35,437 nt of DNA, taken from positions 1-35,437 of the forward strand of contig DATKMQ010000122.1 in assembly GCA_035541755.1 (NCBI GenBank), in the 5' to 3' direction. Made by a program: the position numbers and the translations under genes. The stretch comes from Syntrophorhabdaceae bacterium (lineage in GTDB: Bacteria > Desulfobacterota > Syntrophorhabdia > Syntrophorhabdales > Syntrophorhabdaceae). A model generated the notes under the pieces. That model was given only the letters and a program-made list of their open reading frames with translations, was not told the DNA's origin and did not search any database. This document shows positions 3,028 to 10,845 of this stretch, one piece after another (the first letter of the stretch is position 1; every line of letters starts with the position of its first letter).

Positions 3028-3116
3028 CCGTCCCTTACTCCAAATCGTTCGCCAACATGTGCTCCTCGGCGGATAGATGCGCCATGGCGAGCTTACGGCC
3101 GTAAGGGAAAAAAAGT

Positions 3117-3145
3117 TTGCCAACGGTTTAGCACATTGGTATACT
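3117..3145 (+). promoter_or_regulatory. Sigma70-type promoter upstream of the TRAP operon
   Basis: TTGCCA (3117-3122), a 17-base spacer and TATACT (3140-3145) match the sigma70 consensus well, and TGG directly before the -10 box makes an extended -10. Transcription would start near 3152, leaving a leader of about 100 bases before dctQ. This implies that the TRAP genes can be expressed independently of the upstream molybdenum hydroxylase genes. Confidence 0.65.
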
Positions 3146-3253
3146 AATACTCATCACTTCGTATATGGACCCTGCTTGAAATTCCTTACAGGAAAGGATT
3201 TTGGGCATCAAAACAAAACTGAAAGCAACACAGAATACACAGGAGGTCAGGTG

Positions 3254-3739
3254 ATGGGTGGCTTTGAGCGGTTCATCTATCGAGTGAGCAATCTGGGGGG
3301 TTACCTCGCTGAGTTCTTCATCGCCATGGTCGTGATCCTCGTTGTTGCCACGGTCGTGGGCAGAGCCCTGGGTGTCGCTCTCCCCGGCGCGTTCGATCTT
3401 GTAGAAACCTTTATCGTGGTCGGCGTCTCCTTCTCACTTGTCAAGGCCGAGATGGCCGACCATCACACCAAGGCCGATGTACTGGTAAAACATCTATCAA
3501 AAAGGGGTCGGGCCTGGGTCGAGACCATAAACCAGACATTAAGCCTGTTTGTGTGGGCTGTCATCGTCTATGCGAGTTATTTCCTTACCGTACAAAAGGC
3601 CGAGAACCATGAGATGACCGAATTCCTCAAAGTCCCCATATATCCCTTCCGCGCTGCCTTTACCGTGGCGTCGTTTCTCTTCTGTATCGTTCTCTTGATC
3701 AAAGTCGTCCATCACATCAAGCAAGGGGTATCCAAATGA
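3254..3739 (+). CDS. dctQ: TRAP transporter small membrane subunit (DctQ)
   Basis: This 161-residue integral membrane protein is the small permease component of a tripartite ATP-independent periplasmic transporter. Four hydrophobic segments are visible (about residues 15-40, 50-68, 88-110 and 128-150), as is usual for DctQ. The ATG at 3254 was chosen because AGGAGG at 3241-3246 sits seven bases upstream and the family-typical N-terminus begins there. The frame is open back to 3077, but the added 59 residues do not look like this family. The stop overlaps the dctM start by four bases (ATGA), so the two are translationally coupled. Together with DctM and the binding protein it would import an organic acid using the sodium or proton gradient. 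Confidence 0.9.
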   Translation: MGGFERFIYRVSNLGGYLAEFFIAMVVILVVATVVGRALGVALPGAFDLVETFIVVGVSFSLVKAEMADHHTKADVLVKHLSKRGRAWVETINQTLSLFVWAVIVYASYFLTVQKAENHEMTEFLKVPIYPFRAAFTVASFLFCIVLLIKVVHHIKQGVSK

Positions 3740-5037
3740 GTCCCGTGATCATCGGTCTTCTCGGTTTTGCCATTCTCTTTGTCTTGCTCGGAAGCGGTAT
3801 GTCCATCGGGTTTGCCATGGGTCTTATCGGTTTCCTCGGCATGTGCCTTCTTTATCCCCTGCCTGCAGCTGTAGCCAAGATGGCCATTACCCCGTATCAC
3901 GCGATCGCCAACTACTCCCTCGCCGTGCTCCCTCTCTTTTTGCTCATGGCCCATGTGATCTTTCAGTGCGGTTTCGGTAAAGACCTCTTCAAGGTGGCTG
4001 GCAAATGGCTTGGCCATATGCGCGGGGGGCTTGCGATGACAAGTATAGGCGCCTGCGCCGCCTTCGCCGCGGTGAGCGGCACGAGCCTTGCCACGGCGGC
4101 TACCGTCGGTCTTCTCGCGCTACCTGAGATGAAGAAGCGGGGTTATGACCCCGGGTTTGCCGCAGGATCGGTTGCCGCGGGCGGATCCATCGGCGCCCTC
4201 ATTCCGCCGAGCGGGACTCTCATCATTTATGGCGTACTTACCGAAACCTCTATCGGCAAGCTCTTTGCCGGGGCCGTGATTCCGGCCATTATCACGGTCA
4301 TTTCTTACCTTGCCACGGCCTGGTTCTTGTGCTGGATAAAACCAAGCCTCGGACCTCGTGGCGAAAAGGTGAGCTTCAAGGAAAAGGTAGTCTCCCTCAA
4401 GGATTGCTGGGAATTGATTTTGCTCGTCTGTTTCTCCATAGGAGGGATCATTTTGGGGTGGTTTACGGCAACCGAAGCAGGCGGTGTTGGGGCCGGAGGC
4501 GCGATCCTCCTTTCCACCCTGCGTAGACGCCTGACCTGGAAAAAACTCTTTTTGGCCTTTGAAGACACAATGCGGACTACAGGTATGATCTACGGCATAA
4601 TCATCGGGGCGTTCATATTTAACTATTTTGTGGCCAAGACGACCCTTCCGCAGGCAGTGGGCGAATGGGTGGCCGCCCTCGCTGCTCCACCTATGGTCAT
4701 CGTAAGCATTATTGTGGTCATCTACATACTCCTCGCCGTGGTCATGGAAGGACCCTCGATTCAACTTCTTACGCTACCCATATTTTTCCCTCTTCTCATG
4801 GGCCTCGGTTTTGATCCGGTCTGGTTCGGTGTGATTCAGGTGCGTCTGCTCGAAATCGGTCTCATCGTGCCCCCGCTTGGTATGTGCATGTTTGTTGTTG
4901 CAGGGTTGGATAAGGAGATACCTCTTACAACCGTGTACAGGGGCTGTATCTCTTTTCTTGTTATAGACATTGTCACCATGCCCATCTTTATGTGGTGGCC
5001 AAAGACCGTTACATGGCTCCCGAGCGTCATGAAATGA
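3736..5037 (+). CDS. dctM: TRAP transporter large membrane subunit (DctM)
   Basis: The 433-residue protein is the large permease subunit of the TRAP transporter and forms the translocation path in the inner membrane. It consists almost entirely of hydrophobic helices and contains the family hallmark GSIGALIPPSG near residue 152, followed by TETSIGKLFAGAVIPA, and a C-terminal PPLGMCMF segment near 375. Length is normal for DctM. Its start overlaps the end of dctQ by four bases, and the binding-protein gene follows after 156 bases, so this is a complete dctQMP set. The substrate cannot be read from this subunit. Confidence 0.95.
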   Translation: MSPVIIGLLGFAILFVLLGSGMSIGFAMGLIGFLGMCLLYPLPAAVAKMAITPYHAIANYSLAVLPLFLLMAHVIFQCGFGKDLFKVAGKWLGHMRGGLAMTSIGACAAFAAVSGTSLATAATVGLLALPEMKKRGYDPGFAAGSVAAGGSIGALIPPSGTLIIYGVLTETSIGKLFAGAVIPAIITVISYLATAWFLCWIKPSLGPRGEKVSFKEKVVSLKDCWELILLVCFSIGGIILGWFTATEAGGVGAGGAILLSTLRRRLTWKKLFLAFEDTMRTTGMIYGIIIGAFIFNYFVAKTTLPQAVGEWVAALAAPPMVIVSIIVVIYILLAVVMEGPSIQLLTLPIFFPLLMGLGFDPVWFGVIQVRLLEIGLIVPPLGMCMFVVAGLDKEIPLTTVYRGCISFLVIDIVTMPIFMWWPKTVTWLPSVMK

Positions 5038-5193
5038 AAAGGGTGAGGGTCCAAACAGGACCGAGGAAAGGGGGATTTACGAGGAAGCGCTACGTGAAGG
5101 GCCCGTCGTAAAGCACACGAATGGAGTTCGCTTGAGATGACGGCATGCAGTGTAATGCCAGTTGAGAAAAACAAAATATCTAAGGGAGGGACA

Positions 5194-6225
5194 ATGAAAC
5201 GTACAAAAATTTTGGCCGTATTATTTGTGGGGGCTTTCTTTGTCATGCTGACTCTGCCCGGCGTGACAATAGCACAGGCCCAGAACGTTATCAAGCTGAC
5301 CTATGCCTCACCCTATGGACCTGATCATTCCTTTAGCAAAGCCGACAAAAGGTATTTCGACAAGATCGAGAAGGATACAAAAGGCCGTGTAAAGATTACC
5401 CCTTACTGGGGCGGTACGCTGATGACAGGCGCTGATGCAATCGATGAACTTGCGGCGGGTACGGCAGACATGGCCCTCATCTCGCCGTCTGCGGCAAAGG
5501 CGGGATACGACCTCACTAAAGCAAGCGTGCTCTTCTTCTTTGGCGCCAATCAGCAAGACGGCCACAAGGTCTTCATGGAAACCATAAAGAAAATCCCGGA
5601 ACTGGAGAAAGAGTTCAAGGGGCTCAAGGTGCTCGCATGGACCGGCGGGGCTGATTTCCAGCTTTTGACGCGTAGGCCCGTCCGTAAGATAGATGATTTC
5701 AAGGGCCTACGTATTAAAGCCCGCGGCGATACAGGCGATGTCTATACTCCTTTTGGAGTCGCAACTGTTCCGAACCCCATGGGTGAGGTTTACATGATGA
5801 TCCAGAAGAATATGCTCGATGGAGTTGATGCCCCCATCTCAGTATTGAAGGTTTTGAAGATGGCAGACGTTACGAAGTATTGCACCATGCTCGGCACATT
5901 CGGCACACCTACCGGCACACGGGCCATGAATATAAACACTTACAATAAACTGCCTGCGGACATCAGGAAGATTTTCGATGACAACGTAGACTACTACAGT
6001 GTCATAGCCGAAGAGGAAGTACAGAATGATGACAAAGTCGGTTTGGAATATGCCAAGGCCAACGGTGTGGAGTTCATAAATCTGCCAAAGGCTGACCTCG
6101 ACAAGCTACGCGCTGTATGGTACGAAAAGGCACAAAAAGAGGCCAAAACCCTCGATGCGAAAGGACTGCCGGGGACCAAGTTCCTGAATGAAGCCCAGGC
6201 CGTGATTAAAAAGTATGCGAAGTAG
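5194..6225 (+). CDS. dctP: TRAP transporter periplasmic solute-binding protein (DctP)
   Basis: The 343-residue protein captures the substrate in the periplasm and delivers it to DctQM. It begins with a typical Sec signal peptide: MKR, a hydrophobic stretch to about residue 22, then an AQAQ cleavage region near 27-30. The mature part has the DctP fold, including DDFKGLRIKARGD near residue 167, whose arginine normally grips a substrate carboxylate. The ATG at 5194 follows GGGAGGG at 5184-5190; an in-frame ATG at 5137 lacks a ribosome site and would bury the signal peptide. The likely ligand is an organic anion, possibly aromatic or dicarboxylic given the neighbouring hydroxylase, but this is inference. 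The 156-base gap before it holds no gene. Confidence 0.94.
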   Translation: MKRTKILAVLFVGAFFVMLTLPGVTIAQAQNVIKLTYASPYGPDHSFSKADKRYFDKIEKDTKGRVKITPYWGGTLMTGADAIDELAAGTADMALISPSAAKAGYDLTKASVLFFFGANQQDGHKVFMETIKKIPELEKEFKGLKVLAWTGGADFQLLTRRPVRKIDDFKGLRIKARGDTGDVYTPFGVATVPNPMGEVYMMIQKNMLDGVDAPISVLKVLKMADVTKYCTMLGTFGTPTGTRAMNINTYNKLPADIRKIFDDNVDYYSVIAEEEVQNDDKVGLEYAKANGVEFINLPKADLDKLRAVWYEKAQKEAKTLDAKGLPGTKFLNEAQAVIKKYAK

Positions 6226-6383: not shown

Positions 6384-7508
6384 ATGGCACACGATAAAGA
6401 AGTTCTTTTTTACGCAGTTGCCGATCTGGCTCCTGACAGGGAAAAGCCCATCACCATATTCGACCGTGTAGCGCCGGTCCTGAAAAAGGCTGACATCGTC
6501 TTCGGCCAGTTGGAGACCGTGCTCTCATTGCACGGCTCCCGTCTGCCTCAGGCACGACACGCCGTGCTCACACATCCTAAGGCTGCCGCAGATATGAAAG
6601 CGGCTGGCTTTAATGTGATCTCCTGTGCGGGTAATCACTGTATGGATTGGGGGAGAGAGGCCTTTCTCGATACGCTCGATGTCTTGGCAAAAGCGGGTAT
6701 TTCCGTGATCGGTGCCGGCGCCAATATCAGGGAGGCGAGAAAACCGGCGATCTTTCGTACGAAGGGGAGTAACATAGCCCTTCTCGCCTACAATACGATC
6801 CTTCCTATGGCCTACTGGGCCGAAGAGACAAGACCGGGCTGCACGCCACTTCGGGCATGGACATACTATGAGCAGATCGAACATGACCAGCCGGGCACAC
6901 CCTGCCGTATCCATACCTTCCCTCATAAAGAAGACATGAAGAACATGATCGATGATATTAAGACTGCAAAATCCGTATCCGATGTGGTCATCGTCTCCAT
7001 GCACTTCGGTATTCATTTCATCCCCGCGGTACTCGCCGACTACCAGAAAGAAATGGCGTATGCTGCGATAGATGCCGGGGCCGACCTCATACTCGGCCAC
7101 CATGCCCACATCCTCAAAGGAGCTGAAGTCTATAAAGGAAAGAACATCTTCTACAGCATGTGCAATTTTGCCGTAGACTTAAGGATGGATAAAGCCCACG
7201 CAGAAAGCAAGAGTTTTAGAGAAATCCAGAAGCTCAATCCCGACTGGATCCCCGATTTCGAGGCCCTGTACAATTTTCCCACGGACTCGCAGAAGACCCT
7301 GGTCGTGAAGTGTGTCATTGAAGAGGGCGTCATGAAGAGCGTCTGTTTTCTGCCCACCTATGTGGATAAGAAGACGGCTGCGCCCGAAATCCTCAGGGCA
7401 TCCGATGCCCGTTTCGGACAGGTCGTGAGATATATGGAAGAGATTTCAAAGAATGCCGGTCTCACGACAAAATATGTGGTGAACGGCGACGAAGTGGTGT
7501 TGGCATAA
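6384..7508 (+). CDS. CapA-family metallophosphatase-like protein
   Basis: The 374-residue protein matches the CapA/PGA-cap family, which has a calcineurin-like metallophosphoesterase fold. Recognisable elements are QLETVLS near residue 42, GNHCMDWG near 82, MHFG near 206 and LILGHHAHILKGAEVYKG near 235, ending in the family's YS-CNF strand. The first metal-ligand motif, usually GD, reads VADLAPD here, and the usual NLE reads QLE, so the active site is somewhat altered. There is no signal peptide or membrane segment, so it is probably cytoplasmic and not a capsule-synthesis protein. GGAGG at 6374-6378 supports the start. It lies between a TRAP binding protein and an MmgE/PrpD gene, suggesting a role in processing the imported compound. 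The actual reaction is unknown. Confidence 0.85.
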   Translation: MAHDKEVLFYAVADLAPDREKPITIFDRVAPVLKKADIVFGQLETVLSLHGSRLPQARHAVLTHPKAAADMKAAGFNVISCAGNHCMDWGREAFLDTLDVLAKAGISVIGAGANIREARKPAIFRTKGSNIALLAYNTILPMAYWAEETRPGCTPLRAWTYYEQIEHDQPGTPCRIHTFPHKEDMKNMIDDIKTAKSVSDVVIVSMHFGIHFIPAVLADYQKEMAYAAIDAGADLILGHHAHILKGAEVYKGKNIFYSMCNFAVDLRMDKAHAESKSFREIQKLNPDWIPDFEALYNFPTDSQKTLVVKCVIEEGVMKSVCFLPTYVDKKTAAPEILRASDARFGQVVRYMEEISKNAGLTTKYVVNGDEVVLA

Positions 7509-7546: not shown

Positions 7547-8923
7547 ATGGATGAGTCTTTAACGTTTGCGAAACATGTCGTTTGTATCACCTACGACGAC
7601 CTGTCCCAGCATGTAGTGGATGTGACAAAAAAGAGCCTGCTTGACGCTTTAGCCGTCACCCTTGCCGCCGGTACCATGGGTGAAGGATGCAGGACCTTCG
7701 TTGACCTTGCTCTGTCCGGTGCAGGCAAGAAAGAGAGCACAATCATCGGATTTCGCGCCAAGGCACCGTCCTATATGGCCGCTTTTGCTAATGCCTCCAT
7801 GTCACACGCCCTCGATTTTGAGGATACCCACGACGCCGCCACGGTCCACGCCAACGCTGCCGCCATACCCGCCGCACTCGCTGTGGCCGAAAGCACGGGA
7901 GGGGTGAGCGGCAAGGACCTCATCACCGCCATTGCCATAGGAAGTGATCTGGTCTGCAGATTGGGTCTTGCCCTTACCGTAAATGCTATAGATTATGGCT
8001 GGTATCTGCCCCCTGTTCTTGAGGCCTTTGGCGCCACGGCATCGGCGGCCAAATTACTGAGGCTTTCCGAGCGGGAGATACTGGACGCCTTCTCACTAAC
8101 GCTCTGTCAGGCCACATGTAGCGCCGAAATCATTTACAGTCCCACATCCGTGGTGAGGGCTATCCGCGACGCCTTTTCAGCAAAAGCGGCTGTGCTATCA
8201 GCGCTCCTTGCGCAAAAAAAGATTACCGGCTTTGACCATCCTATCGAAGGCAAGGCCGGGCTTTTTTCGATTTACGTGAGAGGGAACTACGATCCCAACA
8301 TATTGACCAATGAATTAGGGAAAACATTTGAAGGAGCCAACGTGAGCTTCAAACCGTGGCCGAGTTGCAGGGGGACCCACTCGTGCATCGATGCCGCCCT
8401 TGAGATGAGAAAGACGTACAAGATAAGGCCGTCCGACGTGGAAACGATTCATCTCATTGTAAGCCCGCTCAATAAGATGCTCTGTGAGCCGCATCAGAGC
8501 AAGAAGAGCCCTGCTACGGCCATAGATGCCAAGTTCAGCCTGCCCTTTACGGTGGCGCAGGCGATTGTCCACGGGAATGTTTCTCTCGACAGTTTTACGG
8601 CTGAGGCCCTGGCCGACCAAGAAGTGATAACGCTCGCACAGAAGATCAGCTATGAAGTAGATCCGGCGTTGACCCGAACAAGGGCTGTTGAAGGAACAGT
8701 CGAGATAAGGATGAAAGATGGCGCTACCCACAGTGAGACCGTGCAGTTAGTCTACGGCCACCCTGAAAACCCCATGTCCGAACAGGCTTTTATGGCCAAA
8801 TTCTCCGATTGCGCGAAGCACGCTCCAAAAAAGCTCTCGAAGAAGAGAGTGGAAACCCTGGTAGGTTTGATCCTGAACCTGGAGCATCTCGATGATATTT
8901 CCCTGATTACTAAGTACCTGTAA
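7547..8923 (+). CDS. MmgE/PrpD family protein
   Basis: The 458-residue protein belongs to the MmgE/PrpD family, whose best known member is 2-methylcitrate dehydratase; other members include cis-aconitate decarboxylase, and many are uncharacterised. The N-terminal all-helical domain carries the hallmark NASMSHALDFEDTHD near residue 83 followed by VHANAAAIPAALA, and the C-terminal lid domain begins with SFKPWPSCRGTHS near 265. Length is normal. GGGAGG lies about 10 bases upstream of the ATG. No methylcitrate synthase or methylisocitrate lyase is nearby, so the textbook propionate role is not supported. Proximity to a TRAP system, as often seen for this family, points to dehydration or isomerisation of an imported hydroxy-acid. 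That substrate class is inference. Confidence 0.92.
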   Translation: MDESLTFAKHVVCITYDDLSQHVVDVTKKSLLDALAVTLAAGTMGEGCRTFVDLALSGAGKKESTIIGFRAKAPSYMAAFANASMSHALDFEDTHDAATVHANAAAIPAALAVAESTGGVSGKDLITAIAIGSDLVCRLGLALTVNAIDYGWYLPPVLEAFGATASAAKLLRLSEREILDAFSLTLCQATCSAEIIYSPTSVVRAIRDAFSAKAAVLSALLAQKKITGFDHPIEGKAGLFSIYVRGNYDPNILTNELGKTFEGANVSFKPWPSCRGTHSCIDAALEMRKTYKIRPSDVETIHLIVSPLNKMLCEPHQSKKSPATAIDAKFSLPFTVAQAIVHGNVSLDSFTAEALADQEVITLAQKISYEVDPALTRTRAVEGTVEIRMKDGATHSETVQLVYGHPENPMSEQAFMAKFSDCAKHAPKKLSKKRVETLVGLILNLEHLDDISLITKYL

Positions 8924-9006
8924 CCGGAACCGGTTCTCTCGTCCTTTTATACGGAAGTGATCCACACATGAGACAGAAGATCAAAATTCTATTGGAGGAG
9001 GTCTAC

Positions 9007-10713
9007 ATGAGAATGCAAAGAACCTTCCAGGCTATTCGGAGCATCTGTTTTTTTGTTGTGCTGGTCGTGGGGCTGTGGTTAGGTGCTGCAGCCGCGTCAG
9101 GGCATGAGCCGTTTGTGAGCGCTCTGCACCCGGGTGCGTACCTGCCGCAGGTGGCCTCAGTGCCGCTCGCGCCACGTTTGCCGGGTATTGAGAACAAAAC
9201 TATCTACCTTATCACCATCAATTCTCCTAAAGATCCGGCAATGGATAGCCTTGCCGACAGAGTGGAGAAGATGCTTACCGGGCGCTTCGCGAAGGTTATT
9301 CATAAAATCAAGACCACGGCCTATAATGCCGATGACAAACCGCTGTGGGAAGAAATCAAGAAGAACGGCAATGCCTTTGTCTATTTCGCCACTGCTCAGA
9401 GTTCCACGACCATGTATGCCGGTCAATGGTCCGCTGCGCTGGAGAAAAACGGCGTTCCCGGCGTTGTGGCGATCTTCGATCTTTTTGAGCCAACGGCACA
9501 GGCCACATCAGAGAAACTCGGCACCATGCTCCGCACAGTTTCCGTGCCTATGGCATTTGATAAGGCTTCAGACAAACAGCTCTCCGATATTATGGATAAG
9601 ATCATCAAAGCGATCACTACGCCTCTTAACAAGAAAGAAACCATGACAGGCATGTACACGCCAAGAAGGCCGCCCCGGATAGCGATAAAGGGCACCGAGG
9701 AAAAAGTACGGAAATACTTCATGGACCAGGGGTTCACCGATGGCCTGCCTATTGTGATCCCCACCGCCCAAAGAGTGGCCGCAATGCTCAAGGGTACGAG
9801 CCACAAGCCGGAAGAAGTGGTAAGCAGGAAGATGCCGCCAAATGATTATGAGGTGACCGTGGAAAAAGTGGCCATCAACGGAGTCATGGCAGGCTGTAAG
9901 CCTGAATATATGCCGGTGCTGCTCGCCGCCGTGCAGGCCTTTGTTGAAGGAGACAACGGAGGAGGAATTGTCTCCACGAATTCCTTCTCGTTCATGATGC
10001 TCGTCAACGGCCCGATGAGGAGTGAGATAGGCATGAACGCGGGAGTCTTCGCCTTAGGGCCGGGAAACCAGGCGAACGCCAGCATTGGACGGGCCTTAAG
10101 ACTTTTCACGCTCAATCTCGGCGGTGGTAAGGTAGGTGAAAACATCATGGGTACCCAGGGAAACGTGAGTCTCTACTCCTTCTGTTTTCCTGAGAACGAG
10201 GAGGGAAGCCCCTGGGAACCGTACCACGTGAGCCAGGGATATAAGCGTGAGGAAAGCACGGTCACCATTTTCAGCGGAGGATGGAGCCATGCAGGTAACT
10301 ATATGTTCTCTGAAGGCCATGAAAAACTCTCCAGGGCCATCGCCCAGTTTGAATACCCCAATGGTGTTGTTATCCTCATGTCGCCTCCCAAGGCCAGGCA
10401 GTTTTCATCGAAAGGTTTGAGTAAACAGGATGTAGAGGAACGCATCTGGTCATCGGCCACCGTGACCATGAGAGAATTCAAGGATTCCACCTATTACCGG
10501 AGCTTCATAGAGCCGGTGCTCAAGGGAGGACTTGTGCGTGGCGAGCAGTACATATGGCCCAAGGAATACCTTGGCAAACCTGATGACGCCATTGTACAGG
10601 TTTATCCTCGCAAATACGTGAAGGTTGTTGTGGTGGGCGGAGAGATTAATGATGTGGCCCAGGGTTGGAAAATGGCCGGTCCGTCTACTGCATCCATCGA
10701 TAAGTGGAGATGA
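9007..10713 (+). CDS. Exported two-domain protein: UGSC-like domain lacking the UGSC motif, plus its usual partner domain
   Basis: The 568-residue protein starts with a signal peptide or anchor (hydrophobic residues about 12-30 ending AAAASG). Residues about 50-190 resemble the UGSC (seleno)protein family: LAPRLPGIENKTIYL leads into a Rossmann-like segment and ALEKNGVPGVVA follows the motif position. By my ungapped alignment from memory, the redox U/C-G-S-C is replaced by QSST at 131-134. Residues about 225-568 match a conserved domain I recall beside UGSC genes, with GFTDGLPIVIPT near 242, NGVMAGC (C297) and YSFCFPENEE (C393). Function is unknown for both parts. GGAGGAGG at 8994-9001 selects the ATG at 9007; an upstream in-frame ATG at 8968 has no ribosome site. 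It is the last gene before a strong terminator, and the export signal places it in the same compartment as DctP. Confidence 0.75.
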   Translation: MRMQRTFQAIRSICFFVVLVVGLWLGAAAASGHEPFVSALHPGAYLPQVASVPLAPRLPGIENKTIYLITINSPKDPAMDSLADRVEKMLTGRFAKVIHKIKTTAYNADDKPLWEEIKKNGNAFVYFATAQSSTTMYAGQWSAALEKNGVPGVVAIFDLFEPTAQATSEKLGTMLRTVSVPMAFDKASDKQLSDIMDKIIKAITTPLNKKETMTGMYTPRRPPRIAIKGTEEKVRKYFMDQGFTDGLPIVIPTAQRVAAMLKGTSHKPEEVVSRKMPPNDYEVTVEKVAINGVMAGCKPEYMPVLLAAVQAFVEGDNGGGIVSTNSFSFMMLVNGPMRSEIGMNAGVFALGPGNQANASIGRALRLFTLNLGGGKVGENIMGTQGNVSLYSFCFPENEEGSPWEPYHVSQGYKREESTVTIFSGGWSHAGNYMFSEGHEKLSRAIAQFEYPNGVVILMSPPKARQFSSKGLSKQDVEERIWSSATVTMREFKDSTYYRSFIEPVLKGGLVRGEQYIWPKEYLGKPDDAIVQVYPRKYVKVVVVGGEINDVAQGWKMAGPSTASIDKWR

Positions 10714-10748
10714 ACCACCGTGCGACTAAAGCACTAAAACCCGCTTCG

Positions 10749-10787
10749 AGCAAGGGTCCCTCTACTACCACGGGCCCTTGCTTTTTT
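10749..10787 (+). terminator. Rho-independent terminator closing the transport/catabolic block
   Basis: AGCAAGGG and CCC on the left arm (one bulged T between them) pair with GGGCCCTTGCT on the right arm, giving 11 base pairs around an 11-base loop. Six T residues (10782-10787) follow directly. It lies 35 bases after the stop of the UGSC-like gene and ends the operon-like run that began before base 1. Confidence 0.9.
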
Positions 10788-10845
10788 GTCGGAGGTTTCA
10801 TAGTCTTTCACCCGAATGCCACGATACAAGAGAACGATTTGGTTC

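Follow-up and report, generated by a model that had tools for sequence, protein, structure and literature searches.

What a protein of the UGSC family does once it is exported and has lost both its selenocysteine and its resolving cysteine is the question raised by one gene in the window, the whole 35,437-nucleotide stretch of DNA that was analyzed. The open reading frame is intact, and its start, stop and 568-residue product are as the first-pass annotation had given them. The gene, its start signal and the parts of its product are as follows.

8994 to 9001, forward strand: Shine-Dalgarno-like GGAGGAGG, 5 bases ahead of the ATG at 9007, from the sequence.
9007 to 10713, forward strand: coding sequence for 568 amino acids, an exported UGSC domain followed by a conserved second domain (CTD); open reading frame, with homologues that span the whole length.
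9007 to 9096, forward strand: signal peptide, residues 1 to 30 (approximate), from the sequence and hydropathy.
9151 to 9627, forward strand: UGSC domain, residues 49 to 207, flavodoxin/Rossmann-like; from Pfam PF24696, the structure model, fold comparison, hhalign and NCBIfam GrdB/PrdB matches of family members.
9397 to 9408, forward strand: QSST, residues 131 to 134, replacing U-x-x-C; from alignments and profile-profile alignment.
9658 to 10710, forward strand: CTD, residues 218 to 568; confident model, without a Pfam or NCBIfam family and without a good fold match in the PDB.
9895 to 9897, forward strand: codon of C297, where 65 of 104 Sec/Cys relatives have Ala.
10183 to 10185, forward strand: codon of C393, a Cys shared by 41 of 104 Sec/Cys relatives.

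By inspection and hydropathy, the N-terminus, MRMQRTFQAIRSICFFVVLVVGLWLGAAAASG, has the character of a typical Sec signal peptide, which supports the proposed export. Pfam UGSC (PF24696) matched residues 49 to 207 with 33.3 bits, over the curated cut-off of 25 (E 6.9e-8), which confirmed the UGSC-like character ascribed earlier to the N-terminal domain. The NCBIfam selenoprotein equivalog NF041046 scored 30.6 to 34.8 bits, far under its cut-off of 125, and the window protein carries QSST at the position of that model's U/C-x-x-C motif. QSST was placed on U-x-x-C in every alignment made, as well as in the profile-profile alignment to GrdB described below. In the AlphaFold model (pLDDT 89, pTM 0.88), it occupies the end of the beta4 loop (strand 123 to 127) and the first turn of helix 132 to 147. 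Because alignments and model agree on this loop and helix start, we consider the replacement of the motif to be real; both redox residues are gone, as had been proposed.

The structure match lists of the UGSC half were filled by flavodoxin/Rossmann-like chains, in lists that exclude no other fold. The fold of UGSC proteins has been described as "likely Trx-like" (PLoS Genet 2008, PMC2398784), whereas the model and its matches point to a flavodoxin/Rossmann-like, GrdB-related domain, and a Trx-like fold was not adopted for this half. Its best VIA match, 8s7v_H (Z 12.4, rmsd 4.8), was not taken as kinship, and a weak sequence match to ydhR (E 0.006) was disregarded.

The whole family had been annotated as being of unknown function, and UGSC proteins, which number among the most common selenoproteins of sea and fresh water that have no known function (PMC2398784), are still listed as uncharacterized in a 2026 review (PMC13188914). 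Comparison with glycine and D-proline reductases narrows this. The stretch after Sec in GrdB-type proteins (UGTCT....E.E..GIP.V....) resembles UGSC domains, and alignment of the UGSC-family profile with a GrdB profile in hhalign gave a probability of 95.2 (E 2.8e-8). Masking the UGxCT columns of the two profiles left the register unchanged, at a probability of 76.8 (E 2.1e-5, score 42.0); 60 column-shuffled controls scored at most 22.0, and the reversed profile scored 13.8. Among 26 UGSC domains, the NCBIfam models for PrdB, GrdB, GrdF and GrdH matched 7, 5, 4 and 3, respectively (best E values 4.9e-6 to 1e-4), and were the only recurrent off-family matches. The GrdB models did not match the window sequence when it was searched alone. 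On the strength of the masked register, the shuffled controls and the NCBIfam matches, we accept homology between the UGSC domain and the selenocysteine domain of GrdB/PrdB. In Pfam, the GRDB model breaks off directly ahead of Sec and leaves the Sec domain of GrdB-type proteins uncovered (loci L170 to L179), which is probably why the link has not been obvious. A literature search, with few subscription papers in reach, returned none that linked UGSC to GrdB or described exported UGSC proteins.

Fusion of UGSC to a conserved second domain has been described before as a "UGSC/Unknown_1 fusion" (PMC2398784). The CTD is also found as a separate gene adjoining standalone UGSC genes, in line with the annotated resemblance of this domain to one encoded beside UGSC genes. 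Scans with Pfam and NCBIfam assigned no family to the CTD of the window protein or of 106 other members; common as it is, the domain (window positions 9658 to 10710 and relatives) clearly qualifies as a candidate for a family entry of its own. Its model is confident (pLDDT 94.1), and in a PDB search the best Foldseek E value was 1.3e-3 at an rmsd of 17 A, with VIA Z scores of at most 4.8. The first-rank Foldseek matches, weak but consistent, were class I fumarate hydratases and enzymes of the cyanuric-acid-hydrolase type. We do not claim kinship with either, as rmsd values were 12 to 18 A and VIA Z scores were below 5. A relationship to GrdB or GrdE/PrdA found no support, as hhalign of the CTD against GrdB and GrdE gave probabilities below 1.

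The loss of the motif is shared by relatives. The window protein belongs to a six-protein clade (SH-aLRT 98) in which the motif reads QSST (window), SCST (L057), SATS (L056), TGSL (L054b), SSST (L081) and SCST (L082). Positions 131 and 134 show no variation among the 104 Sec/Cys members, and all six clade proteins have lost both residues; Ser or Thr occupies position 133 in six of six and position 134 in five of six. CTD invariants are kept throughout the clade (P252, A289, M294, G296, G335, N357, G361, R362, E396, W403 and G411). The loss of the chalcogen positions together with retention of these residues fits a retained function without redox chemistry and not decay. H407, found in 88% of Sec members, is Ser or Ala in five of the six, a hint of a changed site, and is kept in the window protein. 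Five of six carry a signal peptide, the exception being the Bacillota member L082. The sister group (support 95) consists of L063 from the same genome (UGSC), L083 (UGSC) and L165 from a Variovorax plasmid (CGSC), each with a TrxR-like gene nearby. L056, L057 and L081 lie on contigs so short that their gene context cannot be read.

Losing the two most conserved residues might indicate a decaying pseudogene or an assembly artefact. This explanation, to which we give practically no credence, is already refuted by intact orthologues: motif-less proteins from other families share 47 to 53% full-length identity, none with stops, and dN is 0.43 to 0.51 with dS saturated. The open reading frame itself retains a Shine-Dalgarno site and a terminator. 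It is well supported that the window protein is an intact, exported two-domain UGSC/CTD paralogue that lacks selenocysteine and the resolving cysteine, like its whole orthologous clade.

Nor does the genome lack the means to make selenoproteins. Its 3.85 Mb in 180 contigs contain SelB (377.6 bits), tRNA-Sec (76.3 bits) and ten UGSC genes. An in-frame UGA lies at the motif in six of them; the other four have no UGA there and read AGSC, IPSP, AASC and, in the window, QSST. Since Sec is decoded and six UGA-bearing paralogues are present, the loss is specific to the gene. The nearest paralogue, on contig C129 (L063:8589-10214), is 41% identical to the window protein.

We surveyed 157 UGSC-domain genes, with export assigned by our own hydropathy rule and not by SignalP. 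Relatives had been sampled, not counted exhaustively, by scanning 84,980 species genomes for one CTD peptide pattern. At least 569 were found, and the best 80 loci of these came from Pseudomonadota, Acidobacteriota, Chloroflexota, Bacillota, Actinomycetota and others. Among 44 fused copies with a signal peptide, 36 have Sec, 2 have Cys and 6 have neither; the corresponding numbers are 61, 9 and 12 for fused copies without a signal peptide and 28, 2 and 1 for standalone UGSC genes. Fused, exported copies thus usually keep Sec, and a signal peptide is missing from 12 of the 18 fused copies that have lost the motif. On a tree of 122 rows with the motif masked, motif loss required 7 changes, 6 of them forced by well-supported branches, and U/C was thus lost about six or seven times. 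No positive association between loss and export was found on this tree: in 6 independent pairs, the two occurred together 0.8 times and opposed 3.3 times on average. The link between export and loss, about which the first-pass annotation had asked, was not supported. Nor was its suggestion that the conserved unit acts in the periplasm supported for the family in general, as most sampled copies lack a signal peptide and the sampled copies with a TrxR-like neighbor are cytoplasmic and redox-competent.

Two further observations were made in this sample. One 4.2-Mb genome (G077, loci L041 to L053) gave 15 tblastn matches to UGSC/CTD proteins, mostly with one UGA and many of them exported. Two metagenome-assembled genomes titled Klebsiella pneumoniae (L088) and Bordetella parapertussis (L144) carry UGSC loci of an environmental type, and their species labels look doubtful.

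The neighborhoods indicate a likely source of reducing power for cytoplasmic redox-competent copies. Of the 100 redox-competent copies that lack a signal peptide, 26 have a TrxR-like gene (Pyr_redox_2) within 6 kb, and within the same distance none was found for 38 exported Sec/Cys copies or for 19 motif-less copies (Fisher P of 1.3e-4 and 0.012, uncorrected for shared ancestry). On contig C129, the genes for a TrxR-like protein, UGSC/CTD (Sec), SDR, SBP5, DppB, DppC, two ATPases and a second UGSC/CTD (Sec) stand in a row. A matching Opp operon in G092 has no TrxR-like gene, and in it a Sec copy is followed directly by an exported TGSL copy, a homologue that, like the window gene, lies within a transporter operon (Opp-type ABC).

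It should be noted that small exported rhodanese-like proteins with a YC[DA]CGxGExDS motif are encoded directly downstream of exported Sec UGSC fusions (L064:11066-11578 and L065:7326-7781) and of a fused CGSN copy (L060:1515-2030), and about 1.4 kb from a Sec fusion (L080:8070-8480). They are possible periplasmic sulfur or redox partners where a TrxR-like gene was not found. An undescribed protein of about 185 to 200 amino acids, mostly with a signal peptide and, in the one member scanned, without a Pfam match, is encoded beside UGSC/CTD genes at five loci (L042:5762-6484, L108:2499-3071, L054:18424-18975, L066:7440-7988 and L126:9602-10204).

A redox role could have persisted if C297 and C393 of the CTD had taken over, and these had been annotated as kept. 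Both are present in the window protein, L057 and L081. However, both vary within the clade and across the family: of the 104 Sec/Cys members, 65 have Ala and 39 have Cys at position 297, and only 41 have Cys at position 393. Moreover, no reductase gene lies nearby, and we consider such a role highly improbable.

Motif-less copies of different subfamilies adjoin one another at several loci: LDTC with NGMG at L053 and L111, AGSC with IPSP on contig C137 of the same genome, and three copies at L125. L053 and L125 also have a gene for a glycyl-radical (PFL-like) enzyme. Paired motif loss at L053, L111, L125 and C137 suggests that two subfamilies work together. Such tandem pairs, and the G092 copy that directly follows a Sec copy, would suit a catalytically dead partner or regulator, which forms mixed complexes with Sec paralogues or serves as a ligand sensor. 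For the window protein this is improbable, as no Sec paralogue is encoded within the window or elsewhere on its contig and a cytoplasmic paralogue would be out of reach of an exported protein.

The surroundings of the gene offer a different clue. It is the sixth and last of a series on one strand, and the TRAP and MmgE/PrpD cluster annotated earlier is upheld by Pfam matches of the neighboring genes.

3077 to 3739, forward strand: TRAP DctQ, PF04290.
3736 to 5037, forward strand: TRAP DctM, PF06808.
5137 to 6225, forward strand: TRAP solute-binding protein DctP, PF03480; nearest solved chain 4n6d.
6384 to 7508, forward strand: PGA_cap/CapA-like protein of the metallophosphatase fold, PF09587.
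7547 to 8923, forward strand: MmgE/PrpD family enzyme; nearest solved structures are cis-aconitate decarboxylase and iminodisuccinate epimerase.
10748 to 10789, forward strand: intrinsic-terminator-like hairpin with a T run at the operon end; fold of -24.2 kcal/mol, z -3.07.

Ordinary housekeeping genes lie farther downstream of the hairpin. The CapA-like protein (6384 to 7508) also matched a lasso-peptide epimerase model, though distantly. Other motif-less copies lie near TRAP genes (contigs C122, C137 and C180 of the same genome, and G092); these come largely from one genome, and we do not claim an association.

The Se/S couple and any nearby TrxR-like gene are gone, the CTD site is kept, and the protein is exported and encoded at the end of a TRAP operon. 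A ligand binder in the periplasm is the simplest reading of these facts, and the binding role suggested for the UGSC half in the first-pass annotation is still the leading functional proposal. Taken as a whole, we put the probability at roughly 0.5 that this is a redox-dead UGSC/CTD paralogue of an ancestral selenol reductase that now serves as a putative periplasmic ligand binder. From the homology to GrdB/PrdB and the gene context, we infer that the ancestral mechanism was a selenol-dependent, substrate-specific reduction. In PrdB and GrdB, a partner holds the substrate that Sec reduces, and thiol-reducing systems then regenerate the Sec (PMC13188914). In the parent UGSC/CTD protein, reducing equivalents would pass from NAD(P)H through the TrxR-like flavoprotein to the Se-S couple of the UGSC domain, which would reductively attack an organic acid bound to the CTD; the flavoprotein would then reset the Se-S bond. 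The window protein has lost the couple and would retain the putative ligand-binding framework of the CTD, so that an extracytoplasmic compound is probably bound rather than reduced. This may be a compound handled by its own operon (TRAP DctPQM, CapA-like and MmgE/PrpD proteins), with the protein working next to DctP to scavenge, buffer or deliver it in the periplasm. At the N-terminus of the helix, the Ser/Thr-rich loop may hold an anion where the selenolate once sat.

Some points speak against the binder. The absence of a signal peptide from L082 means that export is not clade-wide, the replacement of H407 in five clade members hints at a changed site, and the CTD could catalyze a non-redox step. 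The last of these is the main rival: a periplasmic enzyme with lyase, hydratase, hydrolase or isomerase chemistry in the CTD, which needs no redox residue and would act on what the TRAP system carries ahead of its uptake, with the UGSC half doing no more than shaping the site. The CTD is the most conserved part of the protein and keeps the invariant polar residues N357, R362, E396, E398 and W403; its first-rank fold matches are to enzymes; and the MmgE/PrpD and CapA-like genes point to acid metabolism. However, those matches are as distant as described above, and the redox residues are otherwise invariant, which ties the chemistry of the parent family to the Sec domain. Such an enzyme is rather unlikely in our estimation, and we retain the ligand binder as the preferred reading. 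Together, the Sec-domain link, the TrxR-like neighbors and an undescribed candidate for a substrate domain make UGSC function directly testable, and a redox-dead exported clade with Sec paralogues in one genome is a natural control for separating ligand binding from reduction.

Compared with known systems, the window protein has its presumed periplasmic place and its operon in common with the TRAP protein DctP (PF03480), and possibly the ligand; it has no sequence match to DctP, which is encoded by a separate gene. The C129 Sec paralogue has the same architecture but, unlike the window protein, has UGSC with a UGA codon, no signal peptide, and TrxR-like, SDR and Opp ABC genes beside it. Homology to the UGSC family (PF24696, NF041046) extends over the whole domain length; the window protein differs in being exported, in the replacement of both U/C positions and in its sub-threshold equivalog score. 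In GrdB, GrdF, GrdH and PrdB, of glycine, sarcosine, betaine and D-proline reductase, the C-terminal Sec domain aligns with the UGSC domain, UGTC on UGSC. In contrast to GrdB/PrdB, the window protein has neither the N-terminal GRDB domain (PF07355, no match) nor UxxC, and in place of a GrdE/PrdA pyruvoyl partner it has the undescribed CTD. We tentatively propose that UGSC/CTD may be a third architecture of GrdB/PrdB-type selenol reductases, with the same Sec domain, a new substrate domain and dedicated cytoplasmic TrxR-like recycling, expanded in the genomes of some anaerobes to a dozen copies or more and frequently exported, of which the window clade would be a redox-dead periplasmic ligand handler that keeps the substrate domain.
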